DNA of 64,000 nt from Treponema pallidum subsp. pallidum str. Nichols (GTDB taxonomy: Bacteria; Spirochaetota; Spirochaetia; Treponematales; Treponemataceae), in the NCBI RefSeq assembly GCF_000410535.2, contig NC_021490.2, positions 406,501-470,500 on the forward strand. Reading direction: 5' to 3'. The notes under the pieces were generated by a model. It was not told where the DNA came from. It did not search any database and was given only the letters and a program-made list of their open reading frames with translations. The translations under genes were made by a program, and so were the position numbers. Below are positions 46,514 to 57,009 of the stretch, one piece after another (within the stretch, counting starts at the first letter, position 1; the number at the start of each line of letters is the position of its first letter).

Positions 46514-47128
46514 GTGGAGATTCAACTGCAAGATCTGATTGACCGAATTAAGCGCGAAGCGGTTGCCTCTTCCGAGGAGCAGGCGTCTCGTTTGCTTGGT
46601 GAGTCGCGTGAGGAGGCAGAGCGGATTGTCCGCGCTGCGCGTGAGGAGGCAGAGCGGATTGTCCGCGCTGCGCGTGAGGAGGCAGAGCGGATCGAGTCGT
46701 CGTCTCTTGCGGCGCTGTCGCAGGCGAGTCGCAACGTTTTATTATCCTTTCAAGATTCGGTGACTCGCTCTCTTCGGGCTATTATTTCGATGGAGACGGC
46801 GCAAGCCTACGATGCGGGTGTTTTGCGTGAGCTTATTCCTCGTGTCGTTTCTGCCTGGGTTCAAGCGGAGGGTGATAAGCTAGAGCTCATCCTCTCTCCT
46901 GCTGATCTTCGGACGCTTGAGGGGGTGTTTTGTGCTGCGTTGCAGGAGCAGCTTTCGGCAGGGGTAGAGTTGAGGTCTGACGATTGCCTTACGGCAGGGT
47001 TTAGGATAGTCCCTGCCGAGGGCGGGTCGTACTATGATTTTTCCGCCGCCGCGGTTGCTCAGTTGTTCTCTTCGTATGTTTCTGCGCGTGTTGCCGAGGT
47101 GCTCAGGTCTGCTGCGCAGGAGCTGTGA
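46514..47128 (+). CDS. atpE: V-type ATPase subunit E
   Basis: 204 residues. The N-terminal half is a long helix with hendecad repeats ([11 protein letters not shown] twice and a partial third), the C-terminal half a globular domain ([45 protein letters not shown]). Subunit E forms the peripheral stalk. GTG 46514 follows CGAGGAG. The TGA overlaps the next gene. First gene of the operon E-DUF2764-A-B-D-I-K. Confidence 0.9.
46607..46695 (+). repeat. 33-bp direct repeat inside the subunit E gene
   Basis: Two identical 33-bp units (46607-46639, 46640-46672) and 23 bp of a third encode the 11-residue unit [11 protein letters not shown]. An 11-residue period suits a right-handed coiled coil and keeps the frame whatever the copy number, so copy number could vary. 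Confidence 0.85.
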
Positions 47129-54546: not shown

Positions 54547-54606
54547 GGAAACTGTTATCCGCGCTCCCCATCTTCCGATACTGGATCGGTGTCGGGGGGA
54601 GTAGGA

Positions 54607-55140
54607 GTGGGGAAGCGTCTGTGCTGTATCGCGCTGGTGATGCGCGCGTTCTGGTACCTCAGTGCGAAGGGAGTCAGTATCGCTTACGTGCCCGTTCATC
54701 GCAGTGGGGGCTCTCAAGATTCGAGCATGAGCACAGCAGTGGGCGATACGCTCCTTAACGCCTTCTTCGACGAGGGAATGGTGGTTACGGCAGTACCGCC
54801 GGGTGTACACGACGGCCAGACTATAGCAGAAATTGCTGCATGTTTTGAAGTAATGCCCGATTACGCGTTGTTGGTGCAGTTTCATTCCGCTCGTCTCCCT
54901 GGTGGGGAAAGCCCTACCTCCCGTGCCCGCGGCGCTTGGTCTTCAGAGAGGTTCCGTGCTGTGTGGACATTAGTGGATTTGCATACGCAGCGCGCGTGTG
55001 TCTATGCGTGTGTCGCCCCATACAGGGAGAGTATTCCCGTTTCTGAGTGTGTTGACGTCGTTACCCGTTGTATTGCGGAGCAGGCAATTTCGTACATACG
55101 GGTGGGCACGAGCACCGATACAGCCGGAGTTCAGTTATAG
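54607..55140 (+). CDS. exported hypothetical protein
   Basis: About 177 residues from GTG 54607 (SD-like GGGAGTAGGA; GTG 54589 also open). The N-terminus MGKRLCCIALVMRAFWYLSAKG looks like a signal or membrane anchor. Mature part has LLNAFFDEGMVVTAVPPG and YALLVQFHS strands; no family recognised. It lies between coaX and arp, 54 bp before arp. Confidence 0.6.
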   Translation: MGKRLCCIALVMRAFWYLSAKGVSIAYVPVHRSGGSQDSSMSTAVGDTLLNAFFDEGMVVTAVPPGVHDGQTIAEIAACFEVMPDYALLVQFHSARLPGGESPTSRARGAWSSERFRAVWTLVDLHTQRACVYACVAPYRESIPVSECVDVVTRCIAEQAISYIRVGTSTDTAGVQL

Positions 55141-55194: not shown

Positions 55195-57009
55195 ATGATT
55201 AAACGCCACATGTTCGCAAAAAGGGGTGTCAAAGGAAGATCTTACCTGGTTAGGGTGAACACTGCGTTCTTAGTGCTTTGTGTTGCTTCTGTCACGCCGC
55301 TTTGGGCTGTGTGGGAAGGGAATGCAGAAATTGGCCCCCAGGGAAGTTTTCTGCAGGACGGCATGTTTGTGCGCAGTGACATGTTCCCCAAAAACACTGC
55401 TGTTGAAATTAGCAACTTAGAAAAGAATGCCAAGGCTCAGGCAGTGGTTATTGGGCACGCAGGGATCCCCGGTCTTCTAGTTAGCCTTGCACCCGCTGCT
55501 GCAGCACAGCTTGGGATTGGCGTATACCAAGCTGTGCGTGTACGCGTACGTACCTTGGGTACCGTGCGCGGTGGGTCTCAAACAAGTCAGGACGGACTGT
55601 CCCTTGCATCTTTGCCGTCCCGTGTGCCTGCGCGCCCCGCGCAGCGTGATCCTCTGTCATCCCCGCCGGCAGGTCACACTGTACCGGAATATCGCGATAC
55701 GGTTATTTTCGATGACCCGCGTTTGGTTTCCCCTTTGTCTCGTGAGGTGGAGGACGCGCCGAAGGTAGTGGAGCCGGCCTCTGAGCGTGAGGGAGGGGAG
55801 CGTGAGGTGGAGGACGCGCCGAAGGTAGTGGAGCCGGCCTCTGAGCGTGAGGGAGGGGAGCGTGAGGTGGAGGACGTGCCGAAGGTAGTGGAGCCGGCCT
55901 CTGAGCGTGAGGGAGGGGAGCGTGAGGTGGAGGACGCGCCGAAGGTAGTGGAGCCGGCCTCTGAGCGTGAGGGAGGGGAGCGTGAGGTGGAGGACGTGCC
56001 GAAGGTAGTGGAGCCGGCCTCTGAGCGTGAGGGAGGGGAGCGTGAGGTGGAGGACGTGCCGAAGGTAGTGGAGCCGGCCTCTGAGCGTGAGGGAGGGGAG
56101 CGTGAGGTGGAGGACGCGCCGAAGGTAGTGGAGCCGGCCTCTGAGCGTGAGGGAGGGGAGCGTGAGGTGGAGGACGCGCCGAAGGTAGTGGAGCCGGCCT
56201 CTGAGCGTGAGGGAGGGGAGCGTGAGGTGGAGGACGTGCCGAAGGTAGTGGAGCCGGCCTCTGAGCGTGAGGGAGGGGAGCGTGAGGTGGAGGACGTGCC
56301 GAAGGTAGTGGAGCCGGCCTCTGAGCGTGAGGGAGGGGAGCGTGAGGTGGAGGACGTGCCGAAGGTAGTGGAGCCGGCCTCTGAGCGTGAGGGAGGGGAG
56401 CGTGAGGTGGAGGACGTGCCGAAGGTAGTGGAGCCGGCCTCTGAGCGTGAGGGAGGGGAGCGTGAGGTGGAGGACGTGCCGGGGGTAGTGGAGCCGGCCT
56501 CTGGGCATGAAGGAGGGGAGCGTGAGGTGGAGGACGTGCCGGGGGTAGTGGAGCCGGCCTCTGGGCATGAAGGAGGGGAGCGTGAGGTCGCTTCTCAGCA
56601 TACGAAGCAGCCATCCCACTCGGTTTCCAACTCAGCTCCCAATCAGTTTCGGAACCCTGAGGGGGAACTCCCCTTTACGCTCCCTGACCTATCCGAGTCA
56701 GAAATTGTGGTTCCGGAGGAACAGAAAGGACGTGCGCATCCCCAGGTGATACCCGAGGGTGCGCCACGTGGACTGCAACCTGGTGAATACTACGTACAGA
56801 TTGCAGTCTTTCATGACGCTATCCAGGTGCAGAGCATTGTCCACCGTTACGGGGTAGAATACCCCATCGCAGTGGAGCAGGACATCCATGAAGGTAAGGT
56901 GCGTTTCACCGTATGCGTCGGTCCTGTCCAAAAAGACGAACGCGGCGCGGTACTAGAGAACTTCCAAAGGTTTGGATTCAAGGACGCCTTTCTGAAAAAG
57001 GCGCGATGA
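55195..57009 (+). CDS. arp: acidic repeat protein Arp (RlpA-like ends, SPOR domain)
   Basis: 604 residues. Signal peptide (hydrophobic TAFLVLCVASVTPLWA, about residues 24-38). Residues 40-120 resemble the RlpA double-psi barrel (MFPKNTAVEISNLEKNAKAQ; APAAAAQLGIGVYQAV), but the catalytic His and Asp positions are not conserved. Residues 183-462 are fourteen 20-residue acidic repeats REVED(A/V)P(K/G)VVEPAS. The C-terminal 75 residues (GEYYVQIAVFHDAIQVQSIV; EGKVRFTVCVGPV) form a SPOR-like fold, which in other proteins binds denuded glycan strands. Arp is a known strain-typing locus of T. pallidum and an antibody target; the domain reading is mine. SD GGGAGGAG. Confidence 0.93.
   Translation: MIKRHMFAKRGVKGRSYLVRVNTAFLVLCVASVTPLWAVWEGNAEIGPQGSFLQDGMFVRSDMFPKNTAVEISNLEKNAKAQAVVIGHAGIPGLLVSLAPAAAAQLGIGVYQAVRVRVRTLGTVRGGSQTSQDGLSLASLPSRVPARPAQRDPLSSPPAGHTVPEYRDTVIFDDPRLVSPLSREVEDAPKVVEPASEREGGEREVEDAPKVVEPASEREGGEREVEDVPKVVEPASEREGGEREVEDAPKVVEPASEREGGEREVEDVPKVVEPASEREGGEREVEDVPKVVEPASEREGGEREVEDAPKVVEPASEREGGEREVEDAPKVVEPASEREGGEREVEDVPKVVEPASEREGGEREVEDVPKVVEPASEREGGEREVEDVPKVVEPASEREGGEREVEDVPKVVEPASEREGGEREVEDVPGVVEPASGHEGGEREVEDVPGVVEPASGHEGGEREVASQHTKQPSHSVSNSAPNQFRNPEGELPFTLPDLSESEIVVPEEQKGRAHPQVIPEGAPRGLQPGEYYVQIAVFHDAIQVQSIVHRYGVEYPIAVEQDIHEGKVRFTVCVGPVQKDERGAVLENFQRFGFKDAFLKKAR
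55741..56580 (+). repeat. fourteen tandem 60-bp repeats in arp
   Basis: Fourteen exact 60-bp units with no gaps. Residue 6 of the unit alternates Ala or Val in the order A A V A V V A A V V V V V V (one C/T change); the last two units also carry Gly for Lys at position 8 and GH for ER at positions 15-16. Otherwise the units are identical, even at silent sites. Confidence 0.98.

Follow-up and report, generated by a model that had tools for sequence, protein, structure and literature searches.

What does Arp of Treponema pallidum do? The arp gene is a standard strain-typing locus and encodes a strong syphilis antigen, which the literature has treated as a candidate binder of fibronectin and as subject to positive selection. 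We investigated this question in a window of 64,000 nucleotides of the T. pallidum Nichols chromosome (G000:C1:406501-470500). An initial annotation, made from the letters alone, had read Arp as a repeat-expanded RlpA-type protein with a double-psi beta-barrel (DPBB)-like head, an acidic linker and a SPOR tail. The open reading frame, the 14 repeats and the head and tail strings it quoted were all at the positions given. The parts of the locus are as follows (residue numbers are those of Arp).

54589–55140, + strand: TP0432 homologue, directly upstream of arp (family HMM; start codon uncertain)
55195–57009, + strand: arp (TP0433), ATG open reading frame of 604 aa, Treponema pallidum
55195–55308, + strand: probable signal peptide, residues 1–38, ending LWA|VWEGN (family conservation before xW[ED]G)
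55309–55557, + strand: DPBB head (pseudo-RlpA domain), residues 39–121 (profiles, predicted fold)
55375–55377, + strand: Ser61, in the column of the invariant RlpA His (TAAH; alignment)
55483–55485, + strand: Ser97, in the column of the RlpA catalytic Asp (alignment)
55558–55740, + strand: pre-repeat linker, residues 122–182 (translation)
55741–56580, + strand: 14 acidic repeats of 60 bp, residues 183–462 (TRF, translation)
56581–56769, + strand: partial repeat and post-repeat linker, residues 463–525 (translation)
56770–57006, + strand: SPOR domain, residues 526–604 (Pfam, family profile)

At the DNA level, TRF reported a 60-bp tandem array of 14.1 copies (55741–56588). Its translation gives 14 units of 20 aa, REVED[AV]P[KG]VVEPAS[EG][RH]EGGE, that span residues 183–462 and hold 96 D/E and 38 K/R in 280 aa. 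The Nichols reference form has been described with 14 repeats and with its repeat unit (PMC10013896), and the repeats in the window match that reference. Elsewhere in the window, TRF also detected a perfect 33-bp tandem repeat of 2.7 copies at 46605–46692 (unit CGCGTGAGGAGGCAGAGCGGATTGTCCGCGCTG).

As a single sequence, the Arp head had no match in Pfam, NCBIfam or PDB, and its detection required profiles of orthologues. PF03330 was matched by 8 of 23 Arp-family heads (best 7.2e-6, Pfam), and several Arp relatives had already been caught by this model in the genome scan. A profile of Arp-family heads retrieved T. pallidum RlpA (TP0993) at an E of 6.3e-5. When the family heads were aligned by hhalign to the DPBBs of 30 spirochaetal RlpA proteins, the probability was 98.0% and the score 70.8, as against at most 2.5% and 16.9 for 40 column shuffles and 5.1% for the reversed alignment. 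The AlphaFold2 model of the Arp head, for which 15 natural sequences were the input, reached a pLDDT of 92.2. Its top match was PA4485, an RlpA-like DPBB, both by Foldseek (6.8e-6) and by VIA-align (Z 14.2, rmsd 1.6 Å over all 83 residues; the runner-up, an expansin, had Z 11.5), and the structure matches below PA4485 were expansins, kiwellins and designed DPBBs. The RlpA likeness of the head exceeds chance, and the DPBB-like head first suspected from short strings is now supported by profile, intermediate-sequence and predicted-fold tests alike. The empty single-sequence searches might instead point to a head that is a beta domain of unrelated origin, with the SPOR tail as the sole link to the cell wall. 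This is contradicted by all three kinds of test, which lead to a DPBB with PA4485 in first place, and we give it almost no credence.

Two further sets of head matches were set aside. The p97/VCP N-domain and the expansins are other DPBB proteins and are no evidence on function. A stretch of 28 residues (55309–55390) of the head profile also resembled six repeat copies in the BP39L lectin (6gxr); the summed E of 1.8e-8 comes from the six repeats, but the best single stretch scores only 1.7, hence we regard this as a chance likeness.

We then compared the 23 Arp-family heads with the 30 RlpA DPBBs at the active-site columns. The His column holds H in all 30 RlpA proteins and S, C or T in all 23 Arp-family heads. 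The catalytic Asp column, which was checked by way of E. coli RlpA, holds D in 29 of the 30 and in none of the 23. In addition, the Asp of the DRG motif is deleted and the first loop is shortened in the Arp-family heads, whereas E or D is found in the vicinity of the RlpA Glu column in 18 of 23 heads, with Ser in Arp itself. The absence of the catalytic His and Asp, initially noted for Arp alone, was therefore seen throughout the family. E. coli RlpA has a Ser at the same column as Ser97 (VISLS); its inactivity has been put down to this Asp-to-Ser substitution, and the protein has been reported to play a structural, non-catalytic part at the divisome (PMC9712689). We infer from the alignments that the Arp family are RlpA-derived pseudoenzymes and would lack activity, although proteins short of these RlpA residues may still have some other activity. 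Arp could, for example, be an active lytic transglycosylase that uses different residues, as the predicted barrel is intact and most family heads have an acidic residue near the Glu column. We consider this very unlikely, given that the family is devoid of His, Asp and DRG and has a shortened first loop, that Arp itself has Ser at the Glu column, and that T. pallidum retains a full RlpA.

Of the 59 related genomes searched, 33 carry an Arp homologue, T. pallidum included. In a DPBB tree, which had only 94 usable columns and weak inner branching, the Arp family formed one clade apart from RlpA (support 100/99). The family is defined in this analysis as RlpA-derived, non-catalytic and partnered by TP0432; Arp has its W[ED]G-type DPBB head, its acidic or Pro-rich linker, its SPOR tail ending in [FY]-x-DAF and the TP0432-like gene directly upstream. 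Among the 33 genomes with an Arp homologue, 27 also gave a strong RlpA match (E of 1e-15 or better). In T. pallidum, RlpA is TP0993 (L002/L005; G000:C1, about 1078.9–1079.8 kb), an intact 341-aa DPBB-SPOR open reading frame with all RlpA motifs, although it is listed among the 'Pseudo'-annotated Nichols reference genes in PMC10600179. The possibility that Arp serves as the RlpA of T. pallidum was rejected because the complete TP0993 is encoded elsewhere in the genome, and the coexistence of RlpA with Arp in T. pallidum and in most Arp-bearing genomes indicates that Arp is a paralogue and has a role distinct from that of RlpA. The term "RlpA-type" fits the order of DPBB head, linker and SPOR domain but calls for a reservation: Arp belongs to a separate paralogous clade that has no catalytic residues and coexists with a true RlpA. 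No link between Arp and RlpA was found in the accessible, mainly open-access literature.

Separately, L065 (1446–3431) and four other RlpA-like DPBB-SPOR proteins (L069, L070, L071 and L072) have partly lost their catalytic motifs, and they branch on the RlpA side of the tree. L065 begins with the Arp-family motif WEGNG yet retains the RlpA-like HANLPFGT.

Between head and tail, the initial annotation had proposed an acidic linker expanded by repeats. An acidic linker is indeed present and contains the 14 acidic repeats. However, a lengthening of the linker by the repeats was rejected, since the 404 aa of Arp fall within the family range (186–603 aa in relatives). The net charge per 100 residues is -15 in Arp and -0.5 to -27 in relatives, whose linkers are Pro-, Ala- or acid-rich, and no comparably regular array of repeats turned up in the Arp relatives compared. 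Judged by these sequences, the repeats take the place of a linker whose length and charge are normal, and linker length, together with acidity in most members, is conserved across the Arp family. "Repeat-expanded" is therefore misleading for a linker of ordinary length and acidity.

The Arp tail alone scored just below the Pfam cut-off for SPOR (E 9e-4; 19.9 bits against 21 bits). All 18 Arp-family tails tested matched SPOR (best 2e-13, Pfam), and the family tail profile matched the solved SPOR domains of CwlC, DedD, FtsN and RlpA, which confirms the SPOR fold proposed for the tail. Upon inspection of the glycan-contact positions (contacts taken from PMC6895207; Gln270, Arg309 and Arg311 in RlpA numbering), we noted that Gln535 and Phe539 of Arp occupy such positions and that the contact Gln (RlpA Gln270, Arp Gln535) is invariant in the 18 family tails. 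By contrast, the basic column (FtsN R285/RlpA R309) holds Thr in Arp and K/R in 15 of 18 family tails, and the Arg311 column holds Cys in Arp and hydrophobic or aromatic residues in relatives. The Thr at the R309 column means that glycan binding by Arp may be weaker or altered, and SPOR binding would be the weakest step of the mechanism proposed below. A SPOR domain in Arp, a periplasmic role and binding of denuded peptidoglycan were already put forward in 2022 (PMC9531955), hence this part of our reading is not new; the word RlpA is absent from the text of that paper. Two more SPOR proteins are encoded by T. pallidum (L001, 931–1743; L003, 1429–2571); one has an FtsN-like N-terminal membrane segment, and the other has a long helical-looking N-terminal part.

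At the N-terminus, an Ala or other small residue just before xW[ED]G is kept in most of 41 family rows (WA, GAS/AAS and similar), and Arp is probably cleaved by signal peptidase I at LWA|VWEGN. Arp has been placed among lipoproteins (PMC13343974), and a SignalP lipoprotein probability of 0.33 was reported in PMC9531955; Arp would then be acylated at Cys29 and anchored in a membrane. Cys29, however, is preceded by Leu (FLVL-C), has no lipobox context and is not conserved, with any Cys occurring in only 17 of 41 family signal-peptide rows and at varying positions, while the small-residue site is mostly kept. Together, these features argue against the lipidation considered in PMC9531955 and the "lipoprotein" label of PMC13343974, and we judge acylation at Cys29 to be unlikely. 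The N-terminus of T. pallidum RlpA (TP0993) is likewise without Cys, so a lipobox, the mark of RlpA (rare lipoprotein A) in proteobacteria, is not diagnostic for RlpA in treponemes.

Next to arp lies a gene that accompanies it well beyond T. pallidum. By family HMM, 28 of the 30 loci L006–L035 carry a TP0432-like gene that adjoins the Arp homologue upstream in the same orientation, and it was also present in all 13 named loci that have upstream DNA, some of which are the same genomes as numbered loci. The HMM had no match at any RlpA locus, nor at loci L066 and L068. Across the order, TP0432 is thus the constant companion of arp homologues. The protein is small and probably secreted; Pfam gave nothing convincing for its family, and no mention of it was found in the literature searched. 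Its predicted model, of modest confidence (pLDDT 71), resembles FlgT (Z 13.5), the TolB N-domain (Z about 11.9) and PelC (Foldseek 1e-4), a fold that, if the model holds, is common to many envelope proteins and does not fix function. The wider flanks vary: several relatives (L076–L086) have a NusG-like gene upstream of the arp homologue, in opposite orientation, and, downstream, secA and a diacylglycerol-kinase-like gene, an arrangement from which T. pallidum and T. putidum differ.

The anatomy of Arp, the clade-wide loss of the catalytic residues, the coexistence with a true RlpA, the long and mostly acidic tether and the TP0432 partner are established. Our favored explanation, which we hold to be likely, is that Arp, once secreted, serves as a non-catalytic scaffold of RlpA-like build, with a SPOR tail that binds to denuded peptidoglycan. 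Exported Arp would present a DPBB head free of the catalytic His and Asp, a long, acidic and disordered tether, and a C-terminal SPOR domain. The SPOR tail would dock on denuded glycan made by the product of the single Amidase_3 gene of the genome (E 9e-46), at septa or other remodelling sites. By analogy with the non-catalytic scaffold proposed for E. coli RlpA, the head may be a binding or regulatory module, possibly in cooperation with TP0432, and the acidic tether would set its reach. A bolder version of this scheme, to which we attach a low probability, is that TP0432 and Arp act together as a two-protein device of spirochaetes, one that links the remodelling of peptidoglycan to a further machine of the periplasm, for example the flagellar basal body or the outer membrane. 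In such a device the SPOR tail would sense denuded glycan, the dead DPBB would hold the FlgT/TolB-like TP0432, and repeat number would tune the reach of an adjustable periplasmic spacer.

Arp could instead be a surface adhesin: its repeats would bind fibronectin and be under antibody selection, and the SPOR and DPBB domains would be vestigial or moonlight. In favour of this idea are immunogenic repeats predicted to bind fibronectin and a report of positive selection in T. paraluiscuniculi (both PMC3105029), as well as the 88.5% of patient sera that recognise Arp (PMC13343974). Moreover, the Leptospira protein MPL36, of RlpA-SPOR type, is described as surface exposed and plasminogen-binding (PMC10399853), so a SPOR domain does not prove a periplasmic location. 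Nevertheless, seroreactivity was similar for FlgE, FlbB and BamD, proteins that belong to the flagellum or face the periplasm (PMC13343974), hence antigenicity does not show exposure, and the strong antigenicity of Arp might come from release of a periplasmic protein and not from surface display. Neither an outer-membrane anchor nor a lipobox was seen in Arp, and its architecture is kept in many relatives, including uncultured ones known solely from metagenome assemblies. We therefore regard an adhesin as improbable; most likely, Arp is internal and binds the cell wall. In culture, intact Arp may be dispensable, as suggested by a single in-vitro read that carries an arp frameshift and a deletion of nearly all repeats (PMC10013896).

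A conserved, non-catalytic RlpA-like family with a fixed partner gene directs attention to envelope biology and away from adhesion, and it allows Arp function to be studied in relatives that are easier to handle, or on recombinant domains, rather than in T. pallidum itself. If Arp is internal, its repeat variation and positive selection need an explanation other than surface antibody escape. New here are the tested DPBB head, the membership in a non-catalytic RlpA-derived clade and the corrected view of linker length, and also the argument against lipidation and the conserved TP0432–arp pair.

Among known systems, RlpA (TP0993 and its P. aeruginosa counterpart, a septal lytic transglycosylase) shares with Arp a signal peptide, a DPBB, a low-complexity linker and a C-terminal SPOR domain, with homology detectable in the DPBB and SPOR domains alike; Arp differs in the missing His, Asp and DRG, the shorter first loop, the long acidic linker and its separate, well-supported clade. 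E. coli RlpA resembles Arp in its Ser in place of the catalytic Asp, but it is a lipoprotein, keeps His and DRG and branches with the catalytic RlpAs. MPL36 is, like Arp, a spirochaetal DPBB and SPOR protein expressed in infection; it is described as a lipoprotein, and the accessible part of the report mentions no repeat array (PMC10399853). PA4485 of P. aeruginosa (PDB 4avr) is the closest solved fold to the Arp head at 19% identity, although in the alignment it has the RlpA motifs AAHR, NDRG and IDVS. Lastly, FtsN, DedD and CwlC, of which FtsN and DedD are membrane-anchored, differ from Arp in having no DPBB head but share with it the SPOR fold and the conserved contact Gln.
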